Source of the DNA: Ashinkailepas kermadecensis
Lineage: Eukaryota > Arthropoda > Thecostraca > Neolepadidae
Assembly: GCA_034440615.1 (NCBI GenBank)
Contig: JAOTOM010004753.1
Location: 347,501-411,500, forward strand
DNA: 64,000 bases
Reading direction: 5' to 3'
The position numbers were made by a program, and so were the translations under genes. The notes under the pieces were generated by a model. That model was not told the DNA's origin, did no database searches, and saw only the letters and a program-made list of their open reading frames with translations. Below are positions 1 through 63,813 of this stretch, piece after piece. The stretch's first letter is position 1, and every line of letters starts with the position of its first letter.

Positions 1-98
1 GCTCTGGTGGCGGCTCGGGCGTGACCGGCCGGTCTGGCACGGTGTCCGGCCGCCGGCTGCACAGGCGAGCACTGCGCCGGGTCGGCACCAGCGACACA
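1..98 (-). CDS. WDR76/CMR1-like protein, exon C (partial, runs off left edge)
   Basis: Third visible exon of a minus-strand gene whose earlier exons lie at 2999-3121 and 2269-2494. The acceptor reads ccggcag just above position 98. The previous exon ends with two bases of a codon, and the single base before GTG here completes it as Pro, so the phase fits. The first residues read VSLVPTRRSARLCSRRPD, then a Pro-rich stretch. A TRRS-x-RL motif shortly after a YExxxxxNI motif is characteristic of the WDR76/CMR1 family (known: a WD40 protein that associates with chromatin and the DNA-damage response). The WD40 repeats would lie beyond the window edge, so the identity rests on the N-terminal motifs only. 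Confidence 0.65.
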
Positions 99-9970: not shown

Positions 9971-10346
9971 TCGTGCAGTGAGGTCGTGAGGCCAGTTGTG
10001 AGTAGGCTGGTGATTTGTTACAGGCACAGGGATGCAAATTGCGCAGGTGTTTGGCCCACTGATTGAGCATTCTTGCAGATTATCCGGTGCCGACATGGAA
10101 GCATTGAACAGCGTTCAAAGCTGGCTGCCGTGCCGATGTTGCTGATTTGCCAACTGAGGAACCTTGCAATCACATTTTTAGTTTAGTTTTGTCATCGAAA
10201 TGCTCCCAACATTTCGACGGGAAATGCTGGTTCGACGGGAAATGCTCGATGGGAAATTTTAGTCTTGTTTTGCACATTTAATTCAACTTTTGCTTGCGTG
10301 CTCCTACTGTGCCAATCTGAATTTGCTGTGTGAATCCTGGCTCAAC

Positions 10347-38298: not shown

Positions 38299-41200
38299 GT
38301 CAGTGATCAGTTCTGTCGCGACTAAGACACGTCAGTTACCGTTCTTGTGACCAGTTTGCAGGCCATTGATCGCTTCACTGGCTATATGTAGTGCCAGTAG
38401 CCGAAATACGTGTAGTTTCATGCAATGTTGTTTGCTTTGTTTAAGTTGTAATTGCAAGCTGGATACTTGCACCAACAACGTATTGCGGGAATATGCCTGA
38501 GTCTGGAATTCTACCACTTCGATATTGTTTCCATATTTGCATTCCTTAACGCTGGTGGTAAATTCGATAATTATTCAAGATGGAGTTGCATGTTGCCGCC
38601 CCGGTAGCTCCGTTGGTTTGAGCGCTGGCCTGCACTGGTCTCCCCTGTCCTGGCAAGGCAGGGTTCACTTCGCTTCACGCGCTCGCATCTAGGCTGGGAG
38701 GGTTAGTTGGCAGCTGGACCGATACGGCCGGGGACGAGCTACCGGGGCCGCCGTGTCGGTGCATTGAAGGCACGTTAAACTCTTGGTCAAAATTCTGCCG
38801 TTGAACTGGAATTCATGGATCGGGTGGTGGGGCTAGGGTTCACGCAACAAGCTCTGCTTAGCAATTGGCCCATGGTTCATAAGGGCACCACAGCAAGAAT
38901 TCGGACTAAATTTACAACAACAACAACAAAATGTTGTGGCTGGAAACAATTGCAATCGCCAGGGATTCCATCTAATAGAGTTCATGCTGAATTTAGTGAT
39001 GTATTTACAAACATCACGGGTGCCCCGGTGTCTCCAAAGTATCCAATTCTCCAACCCTCTCCAATCATCCAACCTCGCCGCTTCGATCCTGCGAACCGCC
39101 GTTTACCCCACTGGGCGCCGTCCGTTCCTTAGCGGACGGGTCAGCGCCGTTCGTGCGCCGCTGGGAGTACCTGGACTACCGGGCCGCTCCCGAACACGCC
39201 GACCACCTGGCGAGCCGGGCCGGCGGCGGCGGCGGCGGCGCGCGGCCGCAGCGAGCCGCCGACACGGCTGCCGTCAGCTTCACGGCTCTGGGTCGCCAGT
39301 TCAGTCTGCTGCTGAGCCGCGATCACACCACCATGTCTGCCGACCTGGAGGTCACTGCGCCCGGCGGACCGGCGCCGCCGCCCGCCCTGTACAGCGGCAT
39401 CGTCCGGGGTGAGGTGTCGGCACGGAGAGGTGGCTGGGGCCGCCGTGTCGAGGCATGGTCCAGGGCGAGGTCACTGCAATTGAGAGAGGGGATCACTGTT
39501 GGGACGTGTCGAAGGGTGAGGCCTTGTAGGTCGAGACAAGCGATGCGATTTGTCACGTAGGACCGACAGAATACAGTAGACTACTAAAAAGAATACGGGA
39601 CAATTGGGGCGTTTGATGCGGCACTATGACCCGGAACATAATGTCGTACCTATTAAATACACCACTTGGCGTATTTCAAAGTCTGAGGAGATAGGTATGT
39701 AAACATTTGTTCATGTGGCCCACGTTTCGTTCTACCGCCTATACATATCTCTTATTTCGCTGCCAAGGAGACATTCCCCACTGGTCCTCCGTGGCCGGTC
39801 CAACCGGCCCACACACCCCTCACCCACTCATCCGACATTCCTGGCACATACGGCCCACACTCAACTCATCCCACATCCCGAGGCCTTAGCCCCCCCCTCC
39901 ACCGATGCCAACTATCCCCTACCTACCTGCTGCCCACCGATGACACCCATCTCGAGTCCACTTGCTCCCCGTCGACCGTCGCCTGCAAACCACCGACACC
40001 TGCCACCCCGCGGCAGGCTTCCCCGACTCGCTGGTGTACGGCTCCCTGTCGAGTGTCGCCCGCAGGCCACCGACATCTGTCACCCCGCGGCAGGCTTCCC
40101 CGACTCGCTGGTGTACGGCTCCCCGTCGAGTGTCGCCAGCAGGCCACCAACACCTGTCACCCCGCGGCAGGCTTCCCCGACTCGCTGGTGTACGGCTCCC
40201 CGTCGAGTGTCGCCAGCAGGCCACCGACACCTGCCACCCCGCGGCAGGTTCCCCAGACTCGCTGGTGTACGGCTCCCCGTCGAGTGTCGCCCGCAGGCCA
40301 CCGACACCTGCCACCCCGCGGCAGGTTCCCCAGACTCGCTGGTGTACGGCTCCCCGTCGAGTGTCGCCCGCAGGCCACCGACACCTGTCACCCCGCGGCA
40401 GGCTTCCCCGACTCGCTGGTGTACGGCTCCCCGTCGAGTGTCGCCCGCAGGCCACCGACACCTGTCACCCCGCGGCAGGCTTCCCCGACTCGCTGGTGTA
40501 CGGCTCCCCGTCGAGTGTCGCCCGCAGGCCACCGACACCTGCCACCCCGCGGCAGGCTCCCCAGACTCGCTGGTGTACGGCTCGCTGTCGGCCGGCGTGT
40601 TCGAGGGCACCATCGAGATCCCGCCGCTCGCCTACTTCGTCGAGCCGGTCCAGGTGTTCGGCGCTGCTAACGTGACGTCACGCTCGCCGGCGTCACACTC
40701 GGTCATTTACTCGAGCCGCGACGTGAGCCTCCCCGCAGGTGAGACGGTCGGTCGCGTGACGTCAGACTCAGCCGCGATGATCAGATGACGTCACACAGGT
40801 ACGGAGACGTGCACATAAAGTGTGGGGACGAATCTTGCAGGAGTCGCGGAAATCGGCTTAATGACTACGAAATTGTTGCGGAGGATGAGGTGTATGCGAT
40901 CATTTACTGGTGGGCGTCATAACCGGTGTTGTCTCGTAGTGTAATTGTATAGTCGTCCATAGGAGTTTACTTAACCGCGGAACAATATACGTATCGGTGA
41001 AACGTGGCTGCAGTTTTATAAATCAGGCATGGGGCGTTTATTTTTCGGCTTGGATAGGTGACACTTTATGTGCAATGGATGGCAAGTGATTGTCTCGGGG
41101 CAGCGTACTATGTTTAAGAAGCATCCTCAGGAACGTAGGTGGGAGATAGGTAATCTAGTCAACTTCAGTTGAATTTCGCACCACTGGAAGCACATCATTT

Positions 41201-44200
41201 CGCCAGGAGGTTTTCTGATTAGGGGGGGGGGACTGGTTAACAGCTCAGGTCAGTCCCACATCAGGACTGGCACTCGGACCAGGGTGGGTCCCATACAGGC
41301 GGGTTCCATCTCGGGTGAACCACACAGCAGGGCTCCGTTTCTCTCCGGGCTGGTACCGTTTCTCTCACGGAGCCCTCCCTAGTATTGTCAATCAATTAAA
41401 TAGAAATCCGCCCGAAAAAATATGTACCCGTAACACTGAACTTCAGCGGGTTCGAGTGCGGTGGTGGCGTGCCTATGTCGACTGGGGAAATTCAATTCAA
41501 AACAAGGCCTACCAGTCCTACCGAGAAAACTGTCATAGACTTACGTCAGCGGGGAACCCATTTTCTTACGAAATATTCACATGAAAATGAATATGCCTTC
41601 CAGATATGTATAAGTGTTCAAATATAATGCGCCTATGTATGTTTTGGCTGTAGTTTCATAAAGGGGGTGTCATGCAATTTATGGTATTTGCCGACTTTTG
41701 GCGTCTTTCAGGGGAGCGTTGTGGTTTCAAAGATGACACGAAAAGTAAGATTGAGCAGCCGGAAGTTGAACTTCAGGAGGATGACGAGGAGGACGAGATC
41801 TTCGTGAGTATTTGCTATCCATAATTCTATAATATTTTCCTTTTTATCTCCTCTCAGGTTCTGCCACTCACCTCTATCTATGACTTACCCAGATATTAAA
41901 TAACATTTATGTCGGGCAGCTGATATAATTGCGCATTTGGTACCTATCAAATGCCGTTTGGTTTCAAGATGGCGTCCTTTGCATTATGTATTGTTCCAGC
42001 TACTTTCATATCACTCCTCAGTTCCTCTCAGCAGGATCCGTCCAGCAAGGGAACAGTGCCGGTGTATTGTTTGGTGTCTTAATTGATGTTATCCCGTCGC
42101 CAGACCATTTCTGGGCACTGTTTCCGAGTCCACGGATCCTGTCGGATTGAGTCTCTCTCCTCTTCCGATTCCGTTCAGTATACAACTCCTGTTCCTCTCC
42201 GCCGCCGGGCTATGCCCAACAGGCAGCACCACGCTTCTCCACTCCCAGACCGTGCTCGGTACACACCCCCCTCCCTCCCCCCCCCGGGGATTTTTTTTTT
42301 TTTAAAAACCCCCCCCCCCCCCCCCCCCCCCAAAATATTTTTTTTTTAAAAAACCAACCACCCATTCTCTCCTCAAAAAAAAACAACAACCCCGCTCCAC
42401 TCTTTCTTCGCCCCAGATCCTGCCCGGTGCACAGCCATTCTCTCTTCACCCTGGCCTTCGGTGCCTATTCAAAGCCAAAATCACACAGCCCCACTCCATC
42501 TCCCAGAGCCTGTCCAGTACACAGCCCCACTCCGTCTCCCAGAGCCTGTCCAGTACACAGCCCCACTCCATCTCCCAGAGCCTGTCCAGTACACAGCCCC
42601 ACTCCCTCTCCCAGAGCCTGTCCAGTACACAGCCCCACTCCATCTCCCAGAGCCTGTCCAGTACACAGCCCCACTCCATCTCCCAGAGCCTGTCTAGTAT
42701 ACAGTCCCACTCCCTCTCCCAGAGCCTGTCCAGTAGACAGCTCCACTCCGTCTCCGCCTCCAGACCCTGTCCGGCAGACAGCGCCGTTTCCTGTCGGGGC
42801 GGTTCAACCCCTCCCCTGACGCCAACCCAAACAGACACCAGTCGGGCGTGTGCACCATGTCTATCGAGACGGACCCCATGCTCTGGAACTACGCCATCGA
42901 CAGGGTAAGATCCGAGTGCATGCCTCCGTGAGGCAGACATGGGAGTCGTATATTAAGCTGGAGGGTCATCACTGCGCTCTTGGACAAAGTAGCATTAACG
43001 GTGGCGATGGTGCCTGTGTGGGGGGAATATGTAAACCGATCTTGGCATTTGATTTTAATCTATAAATCGATAGTGATGTTGCTTTTAACCTATAAATTGA
43101 TAGTGATATGTGTCGTGCTAGATGGTGCGCTAGGCATAGCTATTGTTATTGCCTGTGTTGAAGACATGACAATTATTTGACAGCCCAACAATACTAAAGC
43201 TGATGAGTTACAACTCATGGATCTGGGAGTATATCCAGGAATCATTTGGTAATACTTAGATATCAACATTGCGGCTTTATGGTCCAATCAGTCAATCTAT
43301 CATCCATCAATAATGCGTGAATAAATCAGGCTTACACGCGTGCCCAGCCTGCACTGGCTAGTCATGTGCGGTCGGCAGTTTGGCGGTGACGTGCGTCACG
43401 ACCCAGCCCACACATGACACGCGTGCCCGGCCTGCACTGGCTAGTCATGTGCGGTCGGCAGTTTGGCGGTGACGTGCGTCACGACCCAGCCCACACATGA
43501 CACGCGTGCCCGGCCTGCACTGGCTAGTCATGTTTGGCGTTTTGGCAGTTTGGCGGTGACGTGCGGCGCAGTCGCGACTACTTGCTCAGTCTGATGGGCA
43601 CGCACGTGGCGTTCGTCAACAGACTGTACGCCAACATTAGCTTCAACGGCCAGTACCAGCACGAGGGACTGCAGTTTCAGCTGCAGAAGCTGCTGGTACG
43701 TACCTGCCTTTTACCCGCCGTCGTGTCGAACCCCTGGGCTTGCGTTAGTCAGCTTTGGTGCTGTTTTGTTGTTGTTGTTGTTGTGTGTATGTGTGTGGAT
43801 TTGGATAGGGCAGCACCCCATTTGTTCGAAAAATGGAAGTTGAAGGTTGATTGGTCCACTCCACTGAATTGAAAGCGTCTAAACTTTTGTTTCACATGAT
43901 AACACATACGCTTAGCAAACTATATGTTGTTGCCATCTTACGTGGAGTTTTGCCAGGTGGCCACCTCTGGAAATGCTATGAAAGTAATCGTTGGGCATAT
44001 GAAAGTATTGCCAACATGGCTAGTTTGGGTAATGTGTAATGCCGTAGACGGTCAGCGTTAAACACGTTCTTGCCTAGCTTTAGTAAGTAATCATTCATGA
44101 AGTGGTCCTTTTTGCACTTGAACTACTCGAAAAAGTGAAGCATCCGATATTTTTGTTTTCGTTTGCGATCGTTGTCGTGCTTCCCGACTTGCGAAGGCGC

Positions 44201-47200
44201 CTCCCTTGCCGTCTGTTCCGTCACCTTGGATAACGGGAACGACGTCCGACTGGGACGCCACAGGTAAGGGAGGGCGCCTTGTCACCTCAGGTCAGGGATG
44301 ATGCTGTCACCTCAGGTCACGGACGGCGCCGTGTCACCTTAGGTCACGGACGGCGCCGAGTCACCTTAGGTTACGGACGGTGTCATGTCACCTCAGGTCA
44401 CGGACGGCACCGTGTCACCTCAGGTCACGGACGGCGCCGTGTCACCTCAGGTCACGACGGCACCGTGTCACCTCAGGTCACGGACGGCACCGTGTCACCT
44501 CAGGTCACGGACGGTGCCATGTCACCTCAGGTCACGGACGGCACCGTGTCACCTCAGGTCACGGACGGCACCGTGTCACCTTAGGTCACGGACGGTGCCA
44601 TGTCACCTCAGGTCACGGACGGTGCCATGTCACCTCAGGTCACGACGGCGGCGAGTCACCTTAGGTTACGGACGGTGTCATGTCACCTCAGGTCACGGAC
44701 AGCACCGTGTCACCTCAGGTCACGGACGGCACCGGTGGTGTTGCTGTCACCTCAGGTCACGGAGCACACGGCACCTGGTCACCACGGCACCGTGTCACCT
44801 CAGGTCACGACGGCGGCGAGTCACCTCGGTCGCTCAGGTCACGGACGGTGTCATGTCACCTTAGGTCACGACGGCGGCGAGTCACCTTAGGTTACGGACG
44901 GTGTCATGTCACCTCAGGTCACGGACGGCACCGTGTCACCTCAGGTCACGGACGGCACCGTGTCACCTCAGGTCACGGACGGCACCGTGTCACCTCAGGT
45001 GACGGGTGGCCTGTTCCTTAGGGGTCACGGGTGGTGTCATGTCACCTCAGATCACGGACACCAGCTCATGCGAGGCTGGCTACCAGAACGAGCCGAGCCG
45101 GTTCTGCGCGTCCAACGTCGACTACAAGGAGTTCCTACTGCTGCAGTCGCAGGGCGACCACCGTCAGTTCTGTGTGGCGTTCACCTTCACCTACCGCGAC
45201 TTCACTGACAGCGTCATGGGCTTCGCCTGGAAGGGCAGCAGCAATGTGAAGGGTGGGTGCTGGGGACCGCTAAGAGGAGGCGACGTTCTCTACTGTTTGA
45301 TGGATGGAGTATGTGCTTCGCTGCCACAGGCACATAATCTCCATGTGCTTAGTGGTTGACGCGCAGAGGTGAGGAGATGGGTCGCCCTCTCGACGGTGTG
45401 ACGACGGATCCGAGTATCAGTGACCAGGCAGGCTGACATTCCCAGTCGGTCACTGTCACTGATACGCTTATCCGCTGAGTGATAGGCCGATGCGTTTGGA
45501 GTTGTGGCTTCATGCAAAAACTGGGATCACTGGACATGCAGAACTAGCATGACGATGGGGACGAGGAGTACAAATGGCGAATAATGACATGAGACGCGGA
45601 GGTTCGAGTTAATCGATCAATACGTGACTGGACTATGCATATGTGCTCCGTGCAGCCTCGTCGAGCATCCACCCCGACGGTGGGTGTCATGAAAGGCATC
45701 AGCTGAGGCTTCGCATGTGTGAACTATTTCAGACACACACTCACTCGGCGTTGACACTGATCACAGACAAATACTCGGGCGTGTGCGGCAAGTCCGGCCT
45801 CAAGATGATGATGAAGGACGGCAAGCTGGCCAAGGTGCGGCTCAGCAAGAACTGCGGCATCGTGTCGCTGCTCAACCACAACGAGCGCGTGCCGGTCGTC
45901 ACGTCGCACGTCACGTTCGCGCACGAGATCGGCCACACGCTCGGCTCGCCGGTCAGTCTCCGTCACGTCACGTCACATCACGTCACGTCACATCACACCA
46001 CGTCACATCACATGACGTTCGCGAAAGAGATCGGCCACATGTCCGGCTCGCCGGTCAGTCTCAGTCACGCCACGCCACGCCACGCCACGCCACGCCACGC
46101 CACGCCACGCCACGCCACGCCACGCCACGCCACGCCACGCCACGCCACGCCACGCCACGCCACGCCACGCCACGCCACGCCACGCCACGCCACGCCACGC
46201 CACGCCACGCCACGCCACGCCACGCCACGCCACGCCACGCCACGCCACGCCACATCACATCACATCACATCACGCCACATCACATCACGCCACATCACAG
46301 CACGTTCGAACGCGTTCGGCTCGCCGGTCAGTCTCCATCACGTGACGTCACGTCACGCCACGGGCTGACGCTGCTGACTGTTGGTGAATGGTTCGCTCGG
46401 CTGGATGATGGCCGTCACGATCATATCAGCCGGCTGCAGTTCCCGTGGTGCCGCGAGCCTGCTGAGTGGGGTTTCACGCTCGGGAACATCGATATCGACT
46501 CTAGGACAAATATACGTAAGGACAAATGTACGTATGGCAGATGTACGTAAGCAAATGTACGTAAGCGCAGATGTACGTATGGCAATTGTACGTAAGCGCA
46601 GATGTACGTATGGCTAATGTACGTAAGCGCAAATGTACGTATGGAAAATGTACGTATACGCAAATGTACGTATACGCAAAAGTACGTAAGCGCAAAAGTA
46701 CGTATGCGCAAAAGTACGTATGCGCAAATGTACGTAACCGCAAATGTGCGTATGCGCAAAAGTACGTAAGCGCAAATGTCGTATGGCAATGTCGTATGCG
46801 AAATTATACGCAAAGTACGTAAGCGCAAATGCGTATGCGCAAAGTACGTATGCGCAAATGTACGTAACCGCAAATGTACGTTGCGCAAAGTACGTAAGCG
46901 TAATGCGTAGCGCAAATGTACGTGCGAATGTACGTAAGCGCAAATGTACGTATGGCAAATGTACGTATGCGCAAATGTACGTATGCTCAAATGTACATCA
47001 GCGCAAATGTACGTATGCGCAAAAGTACGTATGCGCAAATTGTACGTAAGCACAAATGTACGTAAGCGCAAAAGTGCGTATGCGCAAAAGTGCGTATGCG
47101 CAAATGTACGCAAGCGCAAAAGTACGTATGCGCAAATGTACGTAAGCGAAAAAAATCGTATGATTAAATGTACGTATGCGCAAATGTATGTATGCACAAA

Positions 47201-50200: not shown

Positions 50201-53200
50201 ATGCTGACTGAGCTGAGTTCGGGATGCGCTGACAGTGTTTTCAGTCGTGATATTGAAGTATTTGACTTCGCCACGCCAGCCGATTCAACACCACGTGTCC
50301 GTTCAGGTTGACTAGGCGGCCGTCTCGGCCCGTCGGTGTGTTCAAATCAGTCTCGTCTGACGAGGTGTTCCCGCCGCCGTGTCCGCCTGACCGGACGACG
50401 TGTCCATCTGACCTGACGGCGTGTCAGTCTCACATGACACCGTGCTGGTTTGACCTGACCCCGTGTCGGTCTCACATGACACCGTGCCGGTTTGACCTGA
50501 CCCCGTGTCGGCGCCGTTTGACCGTCGGTCAGCCGCAGCCAGAGAGGCCAGCTTCTGCGGCAACCGCGTGCGGGAGCCGGGCGAGGAGTGCGACTGCGGG
50601 TACGAGGCCGACACGTGCTCGGACGGCTGCTGCTACCCGGCCGTGCCTTCGGACCATGACCTCGCCCGCAACCAGTCGGCCGTCGGCTGTGCCCGCCGCA
50701 TCCGCACACAGTGCAGGTCAGGTCAGGTCAGATCAGGCCGTGCCGTCCGACCGGGACCGCGCCCACAACTGGTCGGCCGTCGGCTGCGCCCACCGCGCCC
50801 GTACACAGGTCAGGTCAGGTCAGGTCAGGTCAGGTCGGTCGCGCCTACAACCAGTCTGCCGTCGGCTGCGCCCGCCGCGCCCGCACATAGTGCAGGTCAG
50901 GTCAGGTCAGGTCGGTCGCATCTACAACCAGTCGGCCGTCGGCTGTGCCCGCCGCACCCTCACACAGTGCAGGTCAGGTCAGGTCAGATCAGGCCGTGCC
51001 GTCCGACCGGGACCGCGCCCACCGCGCCCGTACACAGTGCAGGTCAGGTCAGGTCAGGTCGGTCGCGCCTACAACCAGTCTGCCGTCGGCTGCGCCCGCC
51101 GCGCCCGCACATAGTGCAGGTCAGGTCAGGTCAGGTCGGTTGCGGCCGCAACCAGTCTGCCTTCGGCTGCGCCCGCCGCGCATGCACACAGTGCAGGTCA
51201 GGTCATGTCGGCTGCGGTCACACCCGGTTCCGGCCGGCCATTTAACCCGCTAATGCCCAGGTCAGGTGAGCTCACTTTGACAGCTGGGGAATTCCAGGAT
51301 AAATCGACCAGGCAAAGGGGTGATTGTCCACCCTCATGTCTTAGATTTTGAGTAAATCTGGTGTATAGGGTTATCTTATCCCATTAATTCACCTGCTAAA
51401 AATGTAGTTCGATCAGGTCAACGGTTCAGGTGTCATAGCCTCAGGCATTTCTGGAAGGTCACCCTGCAAGGTTATGTTCGGTGGCCGGTATCTATGCTAA
51501 ATATCATTCAAAATATAAATATCCAAACATTTTTTAGCTCGAAAGAATTTAAGGAATCCAATGTTTTGAGAGCGGGCCACGTCCTGTGCCACCACAGTGA
51601 CGTCACACCCCCGCCCATTTATAGCGTAACGTTCGGCTGGGCCGGCCGCGTCCTGTGCCACCACAGTGACGTCACGCCCCGACTGTGCGCAGCGTCAGCG
51701 AGGGTCCGTGCTGTCACCCGGACACGTGTCAACTGGTGGCCTCCTCCGAGGCGCGCACGTGCCACGAGCAGAGCGACTGTCTGCAGCGAGCCACGTGTAA
51801 CGGCACCAGCGCCGCGTGCCCGCCGCCCGCGCACCGGCCCAACATGACCCTGTGTCAGAGGGGGTCAAAGGTGAGCGGCGGTGGCGTCGCAAGGGATCAA
51901 AGGTGGGCCGTCATAGCGTCAGAATGGATTAAAGGTGGACCACGGTAGAGCCGGAGGGACGAAAGGTGTGCCGCGGTGGTGTTATGATGGATCAAACGTG
52001 GGCCGTGACATCGTCAGAGGGGATCAAAGGAGGGTCATGGTGGAGTCAAAGGGATGAAAGGTGTGTTCCACAGTGGTGTTATAATGGATTAAACGTGGGC
52101 CGTGTTCGCGTGAGAGAGGATCAAATGTGAGCCGCATTAGTGTGAGAAGGATCGAAGGTGAGCTGCGTTAGTGTCGGAGGGGATCAAAGAAGGGTCGCGC
52201 GACATAGACTGGCATTGGGGCGATATACAATACACTCGTCGCTATTACAGCCCCACGTCGTTACGAGTAAGATGAGGCGACATGGAACAAGAGGCATGGA
52301 TGCAAAGTTCGTACACTCAAGCTCATTATATTCACGTGCACATACTGTGGACAGCATGTGCACGTGGCATCTGCACGGTGGCGTATCACGGTGGCATCTG
52401 CAACATGTGGCGCCTTAAAGCGTGTCTAACCTGCAGCGCAGGTAGCTGCTTCAGAGTGGTAGGCTGTTGTATTGCTGCTTCAGAGTGGTAGGCTGTTGTA
52501 TTGCTGCTTCAGAGTGGTAGGCTGTTGTCTTGCACTGCTGCCCAGCAGACAAAATGGCGCCCTCTCATCTCAGTGCTGGACCGGGCCACATGGAGATCTC
52601 TGTCCTGTCGGGTGGGTCTCAGGTGGATCTCTCCAACGGTGCGAAGCTGGCGGGCGAGCTCCTCAGGCTCGCCAGTGTGCCGCTTCTTGTGCGTCAGTGC
52701 AACAGCGCTGAACCTCACAAGGCCTACCGTCGATAGTCGGTGGAGTTTCTGTGGCAGGTCCGCTACGTGATCAAACTTTTTTTGCGGCAAAATATGAATT
52801 GAGCTGAGTAGTTCAAACTTCTTGGATCCGAGAGAGGTTGGTTTGAGTACTCTGACCATAAATTGTGATTCAGTAACGGACGGGAGACAGAACGAAGGCA
52901 TCCACAAGCGTAGGAATGACGTCGAGAGGAATAAAAGTCCCTCAGATATGACAGACTAGCCAAAGTACCGAAGCGATGCTGGGATATCACGGAGACATGA
53001 TGATTCCAGCTGAGAGTGCGATCAAAGACTGGATCGAGGTGTTTGCTTCAAAACAGGGGGGGGGGGGAGAGATAATGGTAACGAAATTTGACACTGCCAT
53101 TGGGAGCTGCATGGGATTAATCGGGATACTTCCCGAAGACGCAATTCCTTGTACATGCTGCTCTGCACGCCTCAGTCTTTTGAAGGCATTGTTTGTTGGT

Positions 53201-56200
53201 ATTGAAGACGACAGTTTTGTTTTGATGGTCACACAATTATTTATTCATTTTTTATTTTTAGTTATAATTAAAAAAGAAAGAAAAGAAAGGCAGCTAAAAT
53301 TAATGTGTTATGGGAGGAGTTTGTTCGAAAGCTGGGAATTGCATGTATATACGCAATGCATGTATTGTAGCCAATCACTTGCCTCGATTCATTGCGGTTG
53401 GTTAAAAATTTTCAGCTGCTCGTGCGTCCAGAACTCGAAACCCTTCACGTCCCAGCCGAACACGCTCATCGCCCGGCTACCGAGACCCATTGTCTGAGCT
53501 CGACTGCGCCGCGCCGCAGGTGTGTCTGGACGGCCTGTGTCAGGCGTCGGTCTGCGTCAAGACGGGGCTGGAGGAGTGCGGCCTGACGTCCGGCGACACG
53601 CAGGTAATGGTGCTGCGGCCGCTACCGTGCTGCCGCGCCACGACACGCAGGTAATGGTGCTGTGGCCGCTGCCGTGCTGCCGCGCCACGACACGCAGGTA
53701 ATGGTGCTGCGGCCGCGCTGCCGTGCTGCCGCGCCACGACACGCAGGTAATGGTGCTGCGGCCGCTGCCGTGCTGCCGCGCCACGACACGCAGGTAATGG
53801 TGCTGCGGCCGCTGCCTTTGCTGCCGCGCCACGACACGCAGGTAATGGTGCTGCTGCCGCTGCTGCCGTGCTGCCGTGCTGCCGCGCCACGACACGCAGG
53901 TAATGGTGCTGCGGCCGCTGCTGCCGTGCTGCCGCGCCACGACACGCAGGTAATGGTGCTGCTGCCGCTGCCGTGCTGCCGCGCCACGACACGCAGGTAA
54001 TGGTGCTGCGGCCGCTGCCGTGCTGCCGCGCCACGCTGTGTGGCGGCGGTGGATGTCAGGAGCGCAATGGACCGATGTGGAGTGCGACCCGACGCGAGCT
54101 GTTGGTCCTCGTCACAGGGGCGAATACAGGTGGGGGCACTGGAGACATGTTCCCCCAGTGCCCCAGCATGCTCGAGTTCACTCCTCCCCTCCCCCAAGGA
54201 ATTTTTGTTTGCTGCTGCTGATGGCGCCCCTCAGAATAAATGTTCCCGCATGAAAATTCTTGGTGTCCTCGCCTTGTTGTGTACGAAGTACTGACGTTAT
54301 TTTGATCCGTGCTGTCTGTCTGCCGCTTGCGTTCCTTGGTTTTTACTCTGGCAAGGCTCGTCTCGACGAGGCGAGACGAAAGCCAGGATATGGCGGGGCG
54401 AATGGCCAACAGTTCGCGTCACGAGGCGATGTAAAATAGATAAGAATGGCTTCTTCGTTTAGCAAGCAACAATAAATATAATATCCGCAAGTACTACTTC
54501 GACCCGAACACTTCCCTCCGTAAAACCGCTGTTCGGGTGTCCATGTGTGCAGATATGTACTCAGGGAGCTGTGAATGAACGGTAGTAAAAGCTGGCGTGC
54601 GAGAGCATGCTTGTGGAAGTAGTGTTCGTGCCCCAGTTTTGACGACCTAATCATAGACAAGTATCCAAGTGGTTTTGTGCCATGCAGCGTCCGTACAGGC
54701 AGCATCGATCGGTGTCAAAGACGGTGAGATGCAGCATTATTGCAGAGGTAACGTCAAGCATTGCGGAGGGATGGGTGCAGAGGGCCACTGGTTTCTGGTA
54801 TCGTCACGCGAAGACGGGCGATGGCCCGGCTTTGATAACGCCCAGGGGTGTTACACAGCCGCGTCAGGTCCTAGGCTAGGACCTGACACAGCTGTGTACG
54901 GTGTCGTACACAGCTACACATGACATGACATGACACCCCAGGCCCTGACTCAGCTGTGTACGGTGTCGTGACACCCCAGGACCTGACGCAGCTGTGTGTG
55001 TCTGACACCCCCAGGACCTGACGCAGCTGTATACGTTTCGTGACACCCCAGGACCTGACGCAGCTGTATACGGTTTCGTGACACCCTCAGGACCTGACGC
55101 AGCTGTATACGGTATCCGTGACACGGTGTGACACCCCCAGTACCTGACGCAGCTGTGTACGGTGTCGTGACACCCCAGGACCTGACGCAGCTGTGTACAG
55201 TGTCATGACACCCCCAGGACCTGACGCAGGTGTGTGCGGTGTCATAACACCCCAGGACCTGACGCAGCTGTGTCGGTGTCATGACACCCCCAGGACCTGA
55301 CGCAGCTCTGTACGGTGTCATGACACCACCAGGACCTGACGCAGCTCTGTACGGTGTCATGACACCCCCAGGACCTGACGCAGCTCTGTACGGTATCATG
55401 ACACGCCCAGTACCTGACACAGCTCTGTACGGTATCGCGCCACCCCCAGTACCTGACGCAGCTGTGTACGGTGTCGTGACACCCCAGGACCTGACACAGC
55501 TGTGCACGGTGTCGTGACACCCCCAGGACCTGACAGCTGTGTACGGTGTCGTGACACCCCCAGGACCTGACGCAGCTCTGTACGGTGTCATGACACCCCC
55601 AGGACCTGACGCAGCTCTGTACGGTATCATGACACGCCCAGGACCTGACACAGCTCCGTACGGTGTCGCGCCACCCCCAGTACCTGACGCAGCTCTGTAC
55701 GGTGTCATGACACCCCAGTACCTGACGCAGCTCTGTACGGTGGCATGACACCCCCAGGACCTGACGCAGCTCTGTACGGTGTCGTGACACCCCCAGGACC
55801 TGACGCAGCTCTGTACGGTGTCATGACACCCCAGTACCTGATGCAGCTCTGTACGGTGGCATGACACCCCCAGGACCTGACGCAGCTCTGTACGGTGTCG
55901 TGACACCCCCAGGACCTGACGCAGCTGTGTACGGTTTCGTGACACCCTCAGGACCTGACGCAGCTGTATACGGTATCCGTGACACGGTGTGACACCCCGA
56001 GTACCTGACGCAGCTGTGTACGGTGTCGTGACACCCCAGGACCTGACGCAGCTCTGTACGGTGTCGTGACACCCCCAGGACCTGACGCAGCTGTGTACGG
56101 TGTCGTGACACCCTAGAACCTGACGCAGCTCTGTACGGTGTCGTGACACCCCCAGGACCTGACGCAGCTCTGTACGGTGTCGTGACACCCCCAGGACCTG

Positions 56201-59200
56201 ACACAGCTGTGTACGGTGTCATGACACCCCAGGACCTGACGCAGCTGTGTACGGTGTCGTGACACCCCCAGGACCTGACGCAGCTCTGTATGGTGTCATG
56301 ACACCCCCAGGACCTGACGCAGCTCTGTACGGTGTCGTGACACCCCCAGGACCTGACGCAGCTCTGTATGGTGTCATGACACCCCCAGGACCTGACGCAG
56401 CTGTGTACGGTGTCGTGACACCCCCAGGACCTGACGCAGCTCTGTATGGTGTCATGACACCCCCAGGACCTGACACAGCTGTGTACGGTGTCGTGACACC
56501 CCCAGGACCTGACACAGCTGTGTACGGTGTCATGACACCCCAGGACCTGACGCAGCTGTGTACGGTGTCGTGACACCCCCAGGACCTGACGCAGCTCTGT
56601 ATGGTGTCATGACACCCCCAGGACCTGACGCAGCTGTGTACGGTGTCGTGACACCCTAGGACCTGACACAGCTGTGTACGGTGTCATGACACCCCCAGTA
56701 CCTGACACAGCTGTGTACGGTGTCGTGACACCCCCAGGACCTGACAGCTGTGTACGGTGTCATGACACCCCAGGACCTGACGCAGCTGTATACGGTGTCG
56801 TGACACCCCCAGGACCTGACGCAGCTCTGTACGGTGTCGTGACACCCCCAGGACCTGACGCAGCTCTGTACGGTGTCGTGACACCCCCAGGACCTGACAC
56901 AGCTGTGCACGGTGTCGTGACACCCCTGGACCTGACAGCTGTGTACGGTGTCGTGACACCCCCAGGACCTGACGCAGCTGTGTACGGTGTCGTGACACCC
57001 CCAGGACCTGACGCAGCTCTGTATGGTGTCATGACACCCCCAGAACCTGACGCAGCTGTGTACGGTATCGTGACACCCCCAGGACCTGACGCAGCTGTGT
57101 ACGGTGTCGTGACACCCCCAGGACCTGACGCAGCTGTGTATGGTGTCATGACACCCCAGTACCTGACGCAGCTGTGTACGGTGTCATGACACCCCAGGAC
57201 CTGACAGCTGTGTACGGTGTCGTGACACCCTAGAACCTGACGCAGCTCTGTACGGTGTCGTGACACCCCCAGGACCTGACGCAGCTCTGTACGGTGTCGT
57301 GACACCCCCAGGACCTGACACAGCTCCGTACGGTGTCGCGCCACCCCCAGTACCTGACGCAGCTCTGTACGGTGTCATGACACCCCAGTACCTGACGCAG
57401 CTCTGTACGGTGGCATGACACCCCCAGGACCTGACGCAGCTCTGTACGGTGTCGTGACACCCCCAGGACCTGACGCAGCTCTGTACGGTGTCGTGACACC
57501 CCCAGGACCTGACGCAGCTCTGTACGGTGTCGTGACACCCCCAGGACCTGACACAGCTCTGTACGGTGTCGTGACACCCCCAGGACCTGACGCAGCTGTG
57601 TACGGTGTCGTGACACCCCCAGGACCTGACGCAGCTCTGTACGGTGTCGTGACACCCCCAGGACCTGACAGCTGTGTACGGTGTCGTGACACCCCCAGGA
57701 CCTGACGCAGCTCTGTACGGTGTCGTGACACCCCCAGGACCTGACACAGCTGTGCACGGTGTCATGACACCCCAGGACCTGACGCAGCTGTGTACGGTGT
57801 CGTGACACCCCCAGGACCTGACGCAGCTCTGTACGGTGTCGTGACACCCCAGGACCTGACACAGCTCCGTACGGTGTCGCGCCACCCCCAGTACCTGACG
57901 CAGCTCTGTACGGTGTCATGACACCCCAGTACCTGACGCAGCTCTGTACGGTGGCATGACACCCCCAGGACCTGACGCAGCTCTGTACGGTGTCGTGACA
58001 CCCCTGGACCTGACGCAGCTCTGTACGGTGTCGTGACACCCCCAGGACCTGACGCAGCTGTGTACGGTGTCATGACACCCCAGGACCTGACGCAGCTGTG
58101 TACGGTGTCATGACACCCCAGGACCTGACGCAGCTGTGTACGGTGTCGTGACACCCCCAGGACCTGACGCAGCTGTGTACGGTGTCGTGACACCCTAGAA
58201 CCTGACGCAGCTCTGTGCGGTGTCGTGACACCCCCAGGACCTGACGCAGCTGTGTATGGTGTCGTGACACCCCCAGGACCTGACGCAGCTGTGTACGGTG
58301 TCGTGACACCCTAGAACCTGACGCAGCTGTGTACGGTGTCGTGACACCCCAGGACCTGACGCAGCTGTGTACGGTGTCGTGACACCCTAGAACCTGACGC
58401 AGCTCTGTGCGGTGTCGTGACACCCCCAGGACCTGACGCAGCTGTGTACGGTGTCGTGACACCCTAGAACCTGACGCAGCTGTGTACGGTGTCGTGACAC
58501 CCCCAGGACCTGACGCAGCTGTGTACGGTGTCGTGACACCCTAGAACCTGACGCAGCTCTGTACGGTGTCGTGACACCCCCAGGACCTGACGCAGCTCTG
58601 TACGGTGTCGTGACACCCCCAGGACCTGACGCAGCTCTGTACGGTGTCATGACACCCCAGTACCTGACGCAGCTCTGTACGGTGGCATGACACCCCCAGG
58701 ACCTGACGCAGCTCTGTACGGTGTCGTGACACCCCCAGGACCTGACGCAGCTCTGTACGGTGTCGTGACACCCCCAGGACCTGACACAGCTGTGTACGGT
58801 GTCATGACACCCCAGGACCTGACGCAGCTGTGTACGGTGTCGTGACACCCTGAACCTGACGCAGCTCTGTACGGTGTCGTGACACCCCCAGGACCTGACG
58901 CAGCTCTGTACGGTGTCGTGACACCCCAGGACCTGACACAGCTCCGTACGGTGTCGCGCCACCCCCAGTACCTGACGCAGCTCTGTACGGTGTCATGACA
59001 CCCCAGTACCTGACGCAGCTCTGTACGGTGGCATGACACCCCCAGGACCTGACGCAGCTCTGTACGGTGTCGTGACACCCCCAGGACCTGACGCAGCTCT
59101 GTACGGTGTCGTGACACCCCCAGGACCTGACGCAGCTGTGTACGGTGTCGTGACACCCTAGAACCTGACGCAGCTCTGTACGGTGTCGTGACACCCCCAG

Positions 59201-61265
59201 GACCTGACGCAGCTCTGTACGGTGTCGTGACACCCCCAGGACCTGACGCAGCTCTGTACGGTGTCGTGACACCCCAGGACCTGACGCAGCTGTGTACGGT
59301 GTCGTGACACCCCCAGGACCTGACGCAGCTGTGTACGGTGTCGTGACACCCCAGGACCTGACACAGCTGTGTACGGTGTCGTGACACCCCCAGGACCTGA
59401 CAGCTGTGTACGGTGTCATGACACCCCAGGACCTGACACAGCTGTATACGGTGTCGTGACACCCCCAGGACCTGACGCAGCTCTGTACGGTGTCGTGACA
59501 CCCCCAGGACCTGACGCAGCTGTGTACGGTGTCGTGACACCCCCAGGACCTGACGCAGCTCTGTATGGTGTCATGACACCCCCAGGACCTGACGCAGCTG
59601 TGTACGGTGTCGTGACACCCCCAGGACCTGACACCCCCAGGACCTGACGCAGCTCTGTATGGTGTCATGACACCCCCAGGACCTGACGCAGCTGTGTACG
59701 GTGTCGTGACACCCTAGGACCTGACGCAGCTGTGTACGGTGTCGTGACACCCCCAGGACCTGACGCAGCTCTGTACGGTGTCGTGACACCCCCAGGACCT
59801 GACGCAGCTGTGTACGGTGTCGTGACACCCCCAGGACCTGACGCAGCTGTGTACGGTGTCATGACACCCCCAGGACCTGACGCAGCTCTGTATGGTGTCA
59901 TGACACCCCCAGAACCTGACACAGCTGTGTATGGTGTCGTGCCGGCGGCCGGGCCCGGACCCGACCTCGTGTCGCCCGCTGGCCGGCCCGGTGCCGCTGC
60001 CGGCCGGCACCAGCTGCGACAACACCACCGGCTACTGCGACGTGTTCGGCCGCTGTCGGCCGTACCAGTCGGACGGGCCCCTGGCGCGCGTGCGCCGCCT
60101 GCTCTTCACCAGCCAGGGCCGCAGCGATCTGGCCGTCTGGCTGCAGGTATGTCGCGCTGACCTTGCTCGGCTTCAGGCGCGCTGTGTCGACCTTGCTCGG
60201 CTTCAGGCCGACCTTGCTCGGCTTCAGGCCGACCTTGCTCGACAGCAATATTCCCACTTATCTGCCATCTGTTCCGTTTGCCATCCGGCTGGTTCATTAC
60301 TGCTCATACCATCAGCACCAGCTCAACTGGCTGTCAGGAATGGGACGTATGGATGACTATCTTACGTATTGACTGATGTGTCTAATTGCAACCTGGGCAG
60401 CAGTTGCCGCGGTAGCCATAGCAAAATAGCCATGACAGACGCAATAGCCACACGTGTCACACAATAACCATGACTACGATATCAGTTTCCTCAGTCATTT
60501 TATGGTTGTCATGAATGTCGCTATCAGTGTTGTCATTGTTCTGGTAGTCATAATGACCATAGCTACGTGCTGCGTGTGATTGCCGCACTGCCATAGTGAT
60601 TGCTAGTGTAAGGCGCCTGCGGGGGCGTTGGACGAGCCAGAACAAGTTCTGAAATCGCGCGGAAGTCGAATATCCGTGTATGTCAGTCACAGGCAGTTTT
60701 GGACACATCGAGCCGTTCAGTATTTGAGTTCCGAAGAGGACGAGTGAACACAGGCTCCTGCGCGCTGTTGTTTTGCCAGCCAAGTGGCCGTGACCGGTCA
60801 CCACACGGTTCTCTGGTCGCGGGGTCCAGCAGGCCGGCCAGGTCGTAGCGTGCAATAAGGGATTATCCGGCTGTTTGTTCTCCGGGGAGTGCAGCGAGTA
60901 AAGCCTAGTATTTCCGGGCCGGGCTCTGAGGTGAACTTTTCCAGCTGTACTCGCCTGGACCCCAGCCTCGCTCGTGACTAAGATGATGCAGTCGGTTCCG
61001 CCTGCGAGGCGTGTTACGCGACGCACCACACAGTGCTCGTGATGATCGCTGTGTGTGGCCGTGTCGTGACGCAGTGTGACGTGTGCCGCAGCGCAAGTGG
61101 TGGGCGGCGCTGCTGGCGGTGGCGGCGGTCATACTGCTGCTGGCGCTGACTGTGCGCTGCGCCGCCGTCCACACGCCGTCCTCCAACCCGCTGCGTCCGC
61201 CAGCACGTCGCCTGACTGACACCCTGCACCACCCCGTGGACGCGCTCGGTCTACCCCCGCGCAAG
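38244..61265 (+). CDS. ADAM10: ADAM10 / Kuzbanian disintegrin metalloprotease (14 exons seen, C-terminus incomplete)
   Basis: Fourteen exons joined by GT-AG introns give an uninterrupted 772-codon frame, with every phase matching. Domains by residue: signal peptide 1-18; prodomain to 210 with candidate cysteine switch C175 (GERCG) and furin site RQRR 207-210; catalytic domain 211 to about 485 with [12 protein letters not shown] (418-429; H418, H422 and H428 bind zinc, E419 is catalytic) and Met-turn M449; disintegrin and Cys-rich region from [16 protein letters not shown] to GYCDVFGRC; transmembrane helix about 717-735 and juxtamembrane HTPSSNP 741-747. The last motif, GPLAR and TGYCDVFxRC are specific to ADAM10 rather than ADAM17. 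The family sheds membrane proteins, including Notch and its ligands, at the cell surface. The frame reaches a donor at 61265; the final tail exon was not found. Human ADAM10 is 748 residues. Confidence 0.95.
38594..38938 (+). mobile_element. tRNA-like SINE in ADAM10 intron 1
   Basis: Head CCCCGGTAGCTCCGTTGGTT resembles Pol III box A, and GGTTCACTTCG about 50 bp later resembles box B. A conserved-looking GCACGTTAAACTCTTGG body follows, and the element ends in (ACA)n (38913-38930). No clear TSD. It is related in design, not in sequence, to the SINE at 22212-22399. Confidence 0.65.
39133..39408 (+). CDS. ADAM10: ADAM10 exon 2 (prodomain)
   Basis: 276 nt; acceptor CCGTTCCTTAG (an alternative AG at 39143-39144 is also in phase); phase 1 in and out; donor GTGAGG. 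It reads [20 protein letters not shown], a run of six Gly, then [19 protein letters not shown] and YSGIVRG. This parallels the ADAM10 prodomain pattern (YIRHYEGLSY ... FHAHGRHFNLRM ... YTGHIYG). Confidence 0.88.
39975..40555 (+). repeat. 77-bp tandem array carrying exon 3 acceptor copies (intron 2)
   Basis: Eight units at an exact 77-bp spacing (CGGCAGG at 40011, 40088, 40165, 40242, 40319, 40396, 40473, 40550). Each unit holds ACCCCGCGGCAG followed by GCTTCCCCGACTCGCTGGTG and TACGGCTC, that is, the exon 3 acceptor and its first 30 exon bases. The eighth copy runs into the real exon at 40556. All three plus-strand frames stay open because 77 is not a multiple of three and units lack stops. 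Confidence 0.96.
40556..40738 (+). CDS. ADAM10: ADAM10 exon 3 (prodomain)
   Basis: 183 nt; phase 1 in and out; donor GTGAGA. It reads [20 protein letters not shown], then [20 protein letters not shown] and [16 protein letters not shown]. This matches ADAM10 prodomain features GRFEGFI, YVEP and HSVIYHEDD. One N-glycosylation sequon NVT. Confidence 0.93.
41712..41803 (+). CDS. ADAM10: ADAM10 exon 4 (prodomain, cysteine switch)
   Basis: 92 nt; acceptor GCGTCTTTCAG; phase 1 in, phase 0 out; donor GTGAGT. It reads [20 protein letters not shown], then an acidic run EDDEEDEIF. The single Cys (C175) sits where ADAM10 has the GGCADHS cysteine switch, which keeps the zymogen inactive by binding zinc. 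The acidic tail is unlike the human protein. Confidence 0.85.
42290..42375. other. Homopolymer patch, possible consensus error
   Basis: Runs of C, T, C, T and A of 8-25 bases follow one another in 80 bp, inside an otherwise CTCCC-rich, decayed part of the intron 4 array. This looks more like poor consensus than biology. Confidence 0.45.
42486..42763 (+). repeat. 36-bp tandem array carrying exon 5 acceptor copies (intron 4)
   Basis: Eight CAG(C/T)(C/T)CCACTCC starts at exact 36-bp spacing (42486, 42522, 42558, 42594, 42630, 42666, 42702, 42738). The unit CCACTCCATCTCCCAG-AGCCTGTCCAG parallels the real edge CCACTCCGTCTCCGCCTCCAG-ACCCTGTCCGG at 42763/42764. More diverged copies seem to extend back to about 42170. 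Confidence 0.93.
42764..42904 (+). CDS. ADAM10: ADAM10 exon 5 (furin site and start of protease domain)
   Basis: 141 nt, phase 0 in and out; acceptor CTCCGCCTCCAG, donor GTAAGA. It begins [24 protein letters not shown] (207-210) is a furin-type maturation site at the expected place. It continues [20 protein letters not shown], matching the ADAM10 start NTCQLYIQTDHLFFKYYG. Confidence 0.93.
43334..43548 (+). repeat. 83-bp tandem repeat carrying exon 6 acceptor copies (intron 5)
   Basis: Two full 83-bp copies plus the real edge. GGCAG-TTTGGCGGTGACGTG occurs with junctions at 43378/43379, 43461/43462 and, at the real exon, 43548/43549. The rest of the unit (GCCTGCACTGGCTAGTCATG) is also shared. 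Confidence 0.95.
43549..43695 (+). CDS. ADAM10: ADAM10 exon 6 (protease domain)
   Basis: 147 nt, phase 0 in and out; donor GTACGT. It reads [20 protein letters not shown], then [20 protein letters not shown] and LQFQLQKLL. This corresponds to the ADAM10 stretch [20 protein letters not shown]. Sequon NIS present. Confidence 0.94.
44279..45050 (+). repeat. 27-bp tandem array carrying exon 7 acceptor copies (intron 6)
   Basis: About 28 units, mostly 27 bp: GTCACCTCAG-GTCACGGACGGCACCGT. The real exon edge is GTCACCTCAG-ATCACGGACACC at 45050/45051. One 25-30 bp irregular unit set lies near 44740-44830. Confidence 0.96.
45051..45252 (+). CDS. ADAM10: ADAM10 exon 7 (protease domain)
   Basis: 202 nt, phase 0 in, phase 1 out; donor GTGGGT. 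It reads [20 protein letters not shown], then [20 protein letters not shown] and [20 protein letters not shown]. It aligns with the ADAM10 segment [35 protein letters not shown]. Confidence 0.95.
45767..45951 (+). CDS. ADAM10: ADAM10 exon 8 (zinc-binding site)
   Basis: 185 nt, phase 1 in, phase 0 out; acceptor CTGATCACAG, donor GTCAGT. It reads [20 protein letters not shown], then [20 protein letters not shown] and [14 protein letters not shown]. It holds H418, E419 and H422 of the HExGHxxGxxHD motif; the third zinc ligand, H428, is the first codon of exon 9, over 3.2 kb away. Confidence 0.96.
45952..46360 (+). repeat. Array with exon 8 donor copies and (CACGC)n (start of intron 8)
   Basis: Degenerate copies of the exon 8 end plus donor recur: TTCGCGAAAGAGATCGGCCA to GGCTCGCCG-GTCAGTCTC with junction 46053/46054, and TTCGGCTCGCCG-GTCAGTCTC with junction 46326/46327. 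Between them, 46064-46252 is about 37 copies of the pentamer CACGC, and CACGT/CACAT variants flank it. Confidence 0.95.
46502..47905. repeat. 16-bp tandem array with orientation switch: large imperfect palindrome (intron 8)
   Basis: From 46502 to about 47440 units read GCGCAAATGTACGTA(A/T). From about 47445 to 47905 they read in reverse complement, (A/T)TACGTACATTTGCGC. The turn-around is near 47444 (AATGTACGTACATTT). About 55 forward and 28 reverse units; many vary at one or two bases. Confidence 0.95.
48000..48365 (+). repeat. 40-bp tandem array (intron 8)
   Basis: Nine units of GGTGACGGTGTGTTGTTGCC-GGGGTGGCGGCGGCCATGGGA with small deletions. Unlike the other arrays, it does not match a neighbouring exon edge. 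Confidence 0.93.
49209..49395 (+). CDS. ADAM10: ADAM10 exon 9 (third zinc ligand, Met-turn)
   Basis: 187 nt, phase 0 in, phase 1 out; acceptor GTGCCCGCAG, donor GTCAGT. It begins [20 protein letters not shown], then [20 protein letters not shown] with Met-turn M449, then [20 protein letters not shown]. It follows the ADAM10 pattern HDS..[24 protein letters not shown]. Confidence 0.96.
49420..49760 (+). repeat. GGTGGTGGGACTGAGGG array (intron 9)
   Basis: About 14 imperfect units of 22-28 bp beginning 25 bp after the exon 9 donor. The unit's GGACTGAGGGCCGGGG loosely resembles the donor flank GTCAGTGAGCGCCGGG, but the match is too weak to call a junction copy. Confidence 0.85.
50539..50716 (+). 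CDS. ADAM10: ADAM10 exon 10 (disintegrin domain)
   Basis: 178 nt, phase 1 in, phase 2 out (an alternative AG at 50531-50532 is also in phase). It reads [40 protein letters not shown], then [18 protein letters not shown]. [16 protein letters not shown] followed by CCF is the disintegrin start of ADAM10. Further CAGGTCAGG junctions downstream could serve as alternative donors. Confidence 0.93.
50717..51215 (+). repeat. 70-92 bp tandem array carrying exon 10 donor copies (intron 10)
   Basis: Each unit has AACCAGTC(G/T)GCCGTCGGCTG...CGCACACAGTGCAG-GTCAGG, the last 45 bases of exon 10 plus its donor. Junction copies end at 50808, 50895, 50972, 51042, 51119 and 51196 (spacing 92, 87, 77, 70, 77, 77). 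Some copies have an in-frame TAG (ACATAGTGC). Confidence 0.95.
51693..51870 (+). CDS. ADAM10: ADAM10 exon 11 (disintegrin/Cys-rich)
   Basis: 178 nt, phase 2 in, phase 0 out; acceptor CTGTGCGCAG, donor GTGAGC. It reads [20 protein letters not shown], then [20 protein letters not shown] and [19 protein letters not shown]. It matches SPSQGPCC..QC, C..DSDCAREGICNG and CPASDPKPNFTDC of ADAM10. Confidence 0.95.
51871..52200 (+). repeat. 45-55 bp degenerate array carrying exon 11 donor copies (intron 11)
   Basis: Units of the form GTCAGA(G/A)(G/T)GGATCAAAGGTGGGCCGTCA recur six to seven times. The real edge is GTCAGAGGGGGTCAAAG-GTGAGCGGCGG. Copies have drifted more than in other introns, so this array looks older. 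Confidence 0.88.
52444..52530 (+). repeat. 29-bp repeat, three copies (intron 11)
   Basis: GCTGCTTCAGAGTGGTAGGC-TGTTGTATT repeated three times, nearly exact. It is not a copy of an exon edge. Confidence 0.95.
53520..53603 (+). CDS. ADAM10: ADAM10 exon 12 (Cys-rich)
   Basis: 84 nt, phase 0 in and out; acceptor GCGCCGCAG, donor GTAATG. It reads [20 protein letters not shown], then GLTSGDTQ. It matches [20 protein letters not shown] of ADAM10. Confidence 0.95.
53604..54045 (+). repeat. 47-bp tandem array carrying exon 12 donor copies (start of intron 12)
   Basis: CACGCAG-GTAATGGTGCTG recurs with CAG at 53648, 53695, 53744, 53791, 53839, 53897, 53947 and 53994 after the real donor at 53601-53603. 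The unit is the last 10 exon bases plus 37 bp of intron (47-58 bp spacing). Confidence 0.96.
54046..54864. other. Unique part of intron 12
   Basis: Between the donor-derived and acceptor-derived arrays. A poor copy of family B-like GGGGGCACTGGAGACATG sequence is present near 54130; no exon seen. Confidence 0.4.
54865..59912 (+). repeat. 39-bp array of ~130 exon 13 acceptor copies (end of intron 12)
   Basis: Unit ACACCCCCAG-GACCTGACGCAGCTGTGTAC-GGTGTCGTG, 37-39 bp, repeated over 5 kb. The real exon 13 edge is ACACCCCCAG-AACCTGACACAGCTGTGTAT-GGTGTCGTG at 59912/59913, where CCGG replaces ACAC. In the exon frame most decoys read DLTQLCTVS then stop. Other frames are open for hundreds of codons on both strands, giving spurious proteins. 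Confidence 0.98.
59913..60146 (+). CDS. ADAM10: ADAM10 exon 13 (Cys-rich to stalk)
   Basis: 234 nt, phase 0 in and out; donor GTATGT. It begins [20 protein letters not shown], matching ELCHVCCMKKMDPSTC of ADAM10, then [20 protein letters not shown] and [17 protein letters not shown]. TGYCDVFxRC and GPLAR are ADAM10 hallmarks. The first 30 bases are shared with the array upstream, so the exact acceptor used needs transcript data. Confidence 0.93.
60147..60245 (+). repeat. 20-bp repeat after exon 13 donor (intron 13)
   Basis: ACCTTGCTCGGCTTCAGGCC in four copies. GGCTTCAGGCGCGCTG loosely matches the donor edge GGCTGCAGGTATGTCGCGCTG, so this may be a young or weak junction-derived repeat. Confidence 0.85.
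61092..61265 (+). CDS. ADAM10: ADAM10 exon 14 (transmembrane and juxtamembrane)
   Basis: 174 nt, phase 0; acceptor GTGTGCCGCAG, donor GTGAGA. It reads [20 protein letters not shown], then [20 protein letters not shown]. The hydrophobic helix followed by HTPSSNP-x-xPP is diagnostic of ADAM10. If the donor is not used, the frame continues without family resemblance to a stop at 61538. Confidence 0.94.

Positions 61266-63510: not shown

Positions 63511-63813
<303 letters not shown>

Follow-up and report, generated by a model that had tools for sequence, protein, structure and literature searches.

Tandem arrays resembling amphioxus mirages at exon-intron junctions of an ADAM10 gene in Ashinkailepas kermadecensis

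Tandem repeats lying over exon-intron boundaries have been described in amphioxus under the name of mirages. According to the accessible parts of the papers, they occur in the globins BflGb6 and BflGb9 (PMC3087553) and also in TnC and PGBD5 (PMC3902484), and the founding case, known here through citing papers, is Adh3 (Canestro et al. 2002). In its available text, the globin paper proposes mirages as seeds of introns (PMC3087553). Another described route is intron gain by tandem genomic duplication, in which, according to the portion of the source at hand, a new intron forms from exon sequence and its donor and acceptor sides are alike (PMC3443670). A second paper listed for this route is PMC4974935. 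The "Mirage" of PMC9912274 is the name of a transposon and is unrelated. No report of junction minisatellites in barnacles or cirripedes was found in the literature covered, which excluded most subscription journals. The arrays of the ADAM10 gene described here are best explained, with a probability of about three in four, as mirage-type minisatellites that arose by ordinary local tandem duplication, were tolerated at splice sites and then expanded.

The window is a stretch of 64,000 nucleotides of A. kermadecensis, from an assembly of 908 Mb in 4689 contigs. The gene at 39.1-61.3 kb is ADAM10. A protein of 757 residues was joined from 13 exon pieces; compared with solved ADAM10 chains it gave a best E value of 9.7e-100, and its nearest proteins are those of barnacles, Pollicipes pollicipes (57% identity) and Amphibalanus amphitrite (55%). 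Exons 2-14 were placed via phase-consistent GT-AG joins; the beginning of exon 2 was set arbitrarily at 39129, and the C-terminal exon is further downstream than exon 14. Alignment to the Amphibalanus ADAM10 shows no indel near 10 of the 12 joins. At introns 4 and 9 the alignment does contain indels only a few residues from the join, and these two joins were therefore set by phase and GT-AG only. In the following list, exons 3 to 14 were placed by phase join and Amphibalanus alignment unless another basis is given.

39129..39408, plus strand: ADAM10 exon 2, start arbitrary, donor at 39409, without a crossing copy
40556..40738, plus strand: ADAM10 exon 3
41712..41803, plus strand: ADAM10 exon 4
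42764..42904, plus strand: ADAM10 exon 5, by phase and GT-AG, the least certain exon start
43549..43695, plus strand: ADAM10 exon 6
45051..45252, plus strand: ADAM10 exon 7
45767..45951, plus strand: ADAM10 exon 8
49209..49395, plus strand: ADAM10 exon 9
50533..50716, plus strand: ADAM10 exon 10, by phase and GT-AG
51693..51870, plus strand: ADAM10 exon 11
53520..53603, plus strand: ADAM10 exon 12
59913..60146, plus strand: ADAM10 exon 13
61092..61265, plus strand: ADAM10 exon 14, transmembrane

An array was regarded as crossing when its unit aligned over a splice junction with at least 8 bp on each side. TRF reported 18 tandem arrays in ADAM10, half of which (9/18) cross a junction, and a separate junction-centred detector returned the same 9 of the 24 intron ends (5 acceptors and 4 donors). 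Two detection methods thus agree on what a sequence-only reading of this DNA had described, namely introns with arrays built from copies of the neighbouring junction, on either side; such arrays are present in 8 of the 12 introns. The acceptors crossed are those of introns 2, 4, 5, 6 and 12, and the donors those of introns 8, 10 (77 bp), 11 and 12.

39964..40590, plus strand: intron 2 array, 77 bp x 8.1, acceptor and first 35 bp of exon 3
42483..42755, plus strand: intron 4 array, 36 bp x 7.6, diverged unit, spans the acceptor and 22 bp into exon 5
43334..43565, plus strand: intron 5 array, 83 bp x 2.7, acceptor and 17 bp of exon 6
44261..45050 (TRF 44261-45005), plus strand: intron 6 array, 27 bp x 27, reaches the acceptor, 9-13 bp of exon 7
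45913..46304, plus strand: intron 8 donor-side array, 102-bp unit, end of exon 8 and GTCAGT donor, CACGC pentamers between copies
50639..51209, plus strand: exon 10 end and intron 10 donor-side array, units of 77-97 bp, at least 59 bp of exon end and the donor
51894..52189, plus strand: intron 11 donor-side array, 31/97 bp, diverged, 76% identity to the junction
53594..54035, plus strand: intron 12 donor-side array, 47 bp x 9, last 10 bp of exon 12 and GTAATGG donor
54931..59941, plus strand: intron 12 acceptor-side array, 39 bp, about 129 copies (121.5 + 8.1), acceptor and 29 bp of exon 13

In all these arrays the last unit is the one that forms the edge of the exon in use, as had been noticed from the sequence. 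This follows from geometry, since no copy but the outermost is continuous with the remainder of the exon. The exon portion within the units varies from about 9 to at least 59 bp; array edges do not lie at CAG|GT itself, which the sequence-only reading had given as an example of a seed of the duplications. At 9 intron ends the distance from an array edge to an exon edge is at most 25 bp, compared with 1.2 expected from random placement. At the level of single bases, nearby copies are no more frequent at the junctions of ADAM10 than in the remainder of its introns: a copy exists for about 22-24% of the points up to 10 bp from a junction, against 28-89% of intronic points more than 20 bp away. 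The reason is that arrays already make up 10,779 of the 19,866 intron bases (54%). Each array was therefore counted once, and only in this way is the junction enrichment in ADAM10 visible.

The splice dinucleotides are kept in many copies. AG is retained in 7/7, 2/2, 25/26 (intron 6) and 88/89 (intron 12) matched copies of the acceptor arrays, and in intron 4 in 1/3, the real one alone; GT is retained in 2/2, 6/6, 8/8 (intron 12) and 5/7 (intron 11) copies of the donor arrays. Such retention need not mean selection, since the acceptor unit of intron 12 has 12 sites out of 37 that are as well kept as AG. The view that unit sequences are unrelated holds for most of the 21 pairs among 7 units and breaks down for one of them, the intron 12 acceptor unit against that of intron 6, which alone beat nearly all shuffles. 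Within intron 12, the donor-side unit shows no likeness to the acceptor-side unit (shuffle p=0.6).

Further arrays in ADAM10 do not cross a splice junction; they are listed here together with one array at the margin of the window. Among them is the array of intron 13, for which a weak junction case had been claimed and which crosses the junction in neither test.

46507..47906, plus strand: intron 8, 16-bp array and its reverse complement, not junction-derived
48008..48364, plus strand: intron 8, 41-bp array, not junction-derived
49422..49750, plus strand: intron 9, G-rich array, 26 bp past the donor, no junction crossing
50375..50511, plus strand: intron 9, 21/42-bp array, ends 21 bp before exon 10, no crossing
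52445..52533, plus strand: intron 11, 29-bp array, not junction-derived
60188..60241, plus strand: intron 13, 21-bp array
89..1062, minus strand: 37-bp array at the left edge of the window

The 16-bp array of intron 8 (CAAATGTACGTAAGCG), followed by its reverse complement, is also found in a myosin gene on another contig (L026 5837-6885), and this inverted pair is a dispersed fold-back-like repeat. The 37-bp array at 89-1062 may border a putative minus-strand exon at the left edge of the window. At positions 1-39000, 11 exons were predicted (score at least 4) and none has a crossing array; the claim that two other genes in the window obey the same rule was accordingly not confirmed. The arrays are nevertheless not specific to one gene, as had been proposed, and crossing cases were found elsewhere in the genome in fn3 and myosin genes and in an ADAM10 paralog.

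The remainder of the window holds several other elements. On the minus strand, an integrase core fragment (PF00665, E 1e-4, below the cut-off) at 6502-6978 is retroelement-like, a cuticle protein exon with Chitin_bind_4 lies at 9681-10079, and further predicted exons at 19122-20006 look cuticular by eye; neither of the latter two regions has junction copies. A 21-bp array of 18 copies at 20441-20825 is an open frame on both strands, and GGACAG is repeated 43 times at 63554-63811, adjoining a GA run. The arthropod telomere motif is TTAGG, which a short TAACC run of 5.4 copies at 4339-4365 resembles.

Other genes of the genome were sampled in 20 stretches around fn3 matches, 6 around myosin matches and 2 of the ADAM10 paralog (30 including a haplotig pair). 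The fn3 stretches were hand-picked from partial-length profile matches among 105 listed, and the myosin stretches were picked from 78 matches for their many exons per 10 kb. The independent sample for the junction count comprised 27 sequences with 229 junctions. Predicted exons scoring below 5 or lying more than 60% inside arrays were dropped, as were junctions within 60 bp of a stretch end, and introns shorter than 250 bp were left out of the array-edge placement test. The training set for the codon model of the gene finder consisted of ADAM10 and the same fn3 exons. Of the ADAM10 exons it found 7 exactly, 4 with one end right and 1 by overlap, with 2 false and 1 missed, its errors sitting mostly at arrays.

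Arrays fill 21.5% of the 200 kb sampled in the fn3 stretches, where 19 of 130 predicted junctions cross a local copy. When junctions were set directly by the ends of the fn3 profile, 1 of 22 (L018) lay in a repeated stretch, by a 40-mer measure. In the myosin stretches 3 of 76 junctions cross, without excess, and these three cases are located at well conserved exon edges. The related fn3 loci L001, L003 and L009 have one common 36-bp unit, consisting of the acceptor and 7-8 exon bases. The array built from it is 673 bp long in L001 and reaches 3.6 kb in L009, and L003 shows at least 184 bp of it before the stretch breaks off. In L009 the exon that follows the array (9153-9260) contains an in-frame TAG in place of a lysine codon of L001, and this gene may be decaying. 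Over 7.4 kb, contigs C2253 and C2647 (L029/L030) share 99.3% identity and represent haplotigs retained in the assembly. This single pair compared has almost no arrays, and no second haplotype of ADAM10 was found in the assembly.

Crossing was scored by a single detector, at junctions as well as at control points, and every array counted as one unit. Outside the window 24 of the 229 junctions cross a local tandem copy, against 7.4 expected from random intronic points (3.2x, p=1e-6) and 15.6 from GC-matched points (1.5x, p=0.03). An earlier, cruder null had given 12.7 expected (p=0.003). The GC-matched test is conservative, because copies were sought on either side of a control point but on a single side of a junction. 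With stricter exon filters it gave 23/211 vs 14.7 (p=0.03), 17/181 vs 12.7 (p=0.14) and 14/151 vs 10.6 (p=0.18). The crossing rate of control points themselves rises with GC, from 1.2% below 0.45 to 8.4% above 0.65. Elsewhere in the genome, junction copies are therefore only slightly commoner than expected for GC-rich exon-flanking DNA; GC-rich sequence beside exons accounts for most of the excess, and a residue is possible. ADAM10, with 9/24 against 1.8 GC-matched (p=1e-4), is an outlier that was picked up through being striking. Taken together, the two GC-matched comparisons suggest that GC may not be the whole story.

Such a residue would be expected if a mutational process, through transcription, R-loops or the splice signal, targeted functional splice junctions beyond equally GC-rich DNA. 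The ADAM10 count and the sample (p=0.03, or 0.003 under the cruder null) point in this direction, as do array edges within 25 bp of exon edges at 28 of 156 intron ends, against 7.1 from random placement without GC correction. Strong donor motifs are also more frequent in the 116 array units on the strand of the gene (20) than on the other (8). The rank test of sense against antisense donor scores is, however, flat (p=0.46), and acceptor motif counts by strand, at the same threshold, hardly differ (6 vs 4), so that seeding by splice motifs was rejected as mixed. The breakpoints are variable, the excess loses significance under the two strictest filters, the myosin genes and the fn3 profile ends show few cases, the ADAM10 count is affected by ascertainment, and the gene finder makes errors close to arrays. 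Targeting is thus unlikely, although it is the best placed of the alternatives. The recurrent process at splice junctions put forward by the sequence-only reading is accordingly not demonstrated, and that interpretation is at best partly right.

A paralog on contig C3484 gives information on the birth and age of the arrays. It has six introns in common with ADAM10 (6, 7, 9, 10, 11 and 13) and is without introns 5, 8 and 12. Placed by homology, it has crossing arrays at 2 of 15 counted junctions, the acceptors of introns 10 and 11; in ADAM10, the arrays of these two introns are on the donor side. Shared introns with different arrays in the two genes mean that those arrays are younger than the introns and were born separately, in agreement with the repeated independent origins proposed earlier. 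At the intron 13 donor of the paralog (L027 3736), the exon end and GTAAG form an exact 35-bp duplication in two copies, with 3 bp common to its ends, and this is what array birth looks like. The junction detector missed this duplication, and its counts are therefore incomplete. A 39-bp array of the paralog extends 6 bp into the last exon. Microhomology was seen in one clean case and is statistically not established; a wider count was discarded because it mixes old arrays and its null is inflated, and a stricter list of 25 rows still includes several older arrays. Contig C3735 (70796-72931) holds an intronless open frame of 778 aa that resembles ADAM10, with 42% identity to residues 39-750, and is possibly a retrogene.

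The same paralog bears on whether the arrays are traces of intron gain, either by tandem genomic duplication or by the mirage model of the amphioxus globins. The three introns absent from it (5, 8 and 12) all have crossing arrays in ADAM10, compared with 3 of the 6 common introns (6, 10 and 11 yes; 7, 9 and 13 no), a weak lead, since the chance of such a split is 20/84 = 0.24. Loss in the paralog is as likely, however, and the ADAM10 family also includes an intronless copy. Where introns are shared, the different arrays are younger than the introns, and the unlike donor and acceptor units of intron 12 do not fit a simple AGGT duplication, which needs likeness. Intron gain is therefore a very improbable origin. 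That the arrays are collapsed or mis-joined repeats of the assembly, as one 5-kb array of about 129 units and the earlier misassembly of amphioxus mirages mentioned in the available text of PMC3087553 might suggest, can hardly be right, given the same structure across many genes and contigs, units that diverge within arrays and a common unit in three related loci. Rather improbable, too, is the wider combination in which duplication favours splice junctions beyond GC, about one junction in ten has a mirage, introns lengthen from their ends and introns 5, 8 and 12 of ADAM10 were born from arrays.

Ordinary local duplication followed by expansion would proceed as follows. A tandem duplication of about 25-100 bp in GC-rich DNA would break within the exon edge on one side and within the intron on the other. 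The outermost splice-site copy would still be spliced normally to the exon, the protein would be unchanged and the extra copies would turn into intron. A duplication straddling a junction would be tolerated for this reason, probably as a neutral change, and would survive where one inside an exon would not, since the gene product stays the same. This is in keeping with the distribution of array edges, whose density is 1.9-2.4 per kb at -30 to +30 bp of the junction and 0.5-0.7 at 120-2000 bp; inside exons it is 1.9 per kb at 0-30 bp, 0.85 at 30-60 and 0.18 beyond 60. The array would then grow and homogenise like any minisatellite, presumably by slippage or unequal exchange, and lengthen the intron. 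Transcripts with premature stops are destroyed by nonsense-mediated decay. An upstream copy in intron 12, if read, has an in-frame TGA after nine codons, and errors from internal acceptor use there would be removed in this way.

A crustacean genome in which about 10% of the sampled junctions (24/229) are copied would indicate that mirages are not an amphioxus oddity. It would offer many natural tests of spliceosome choice among near-identical sites (about 129 in intron 12), of intron lengthening and of intron gain from mirages. If the excess is only a matter of GC, it also calls for caution, as arrays at exon edges need no splice-specific cause.

Among known systems, ordinary intronic minisatellites are like the present arrays in their GC-rich units, array growth and abundance in this genome, and unlike them in that the ADAM10 unit includes a splice junction. 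Intron gain by tandem genomic duplication, as far as its source was available, shares the local tandem duplication with a splice signal inside; in ADAM10, by contrast, existing introns are lengthened and the two sides are unrelated (as tested in intron 12 only). The amphioxus mirages belong to another phylum, and the present case, known here from DNA alone, has nine clusters within a single gene, the largest with about 129 units. The sequence-only reading knew of no described system that matches, yet the accessible descriptions of mirages (PMC3087553, PMC3902484) do. They report minisatellite-type repeats spanning boundaries at donors or acceptors, in which the cluster ends at the authentic edge, the units measure tens of bp (10-72 in Adh3, 150-160 in one globin) and many copies, not all, keep AG or GT. 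Mirages are also described as differing in length between haplotypes or cells and as leaving regular splicing intact. The edge unit is said to be less homogenised, and the real junctions of intron 12 differ from the array consensus at 4 of 37 sites (acceptor) and 1 of 37 (donor), which coding constraint would also fit. As far as these descriptions extend, amphioxus mirages thus appear to match the ADAM10 arrays in every testable sequence feature.
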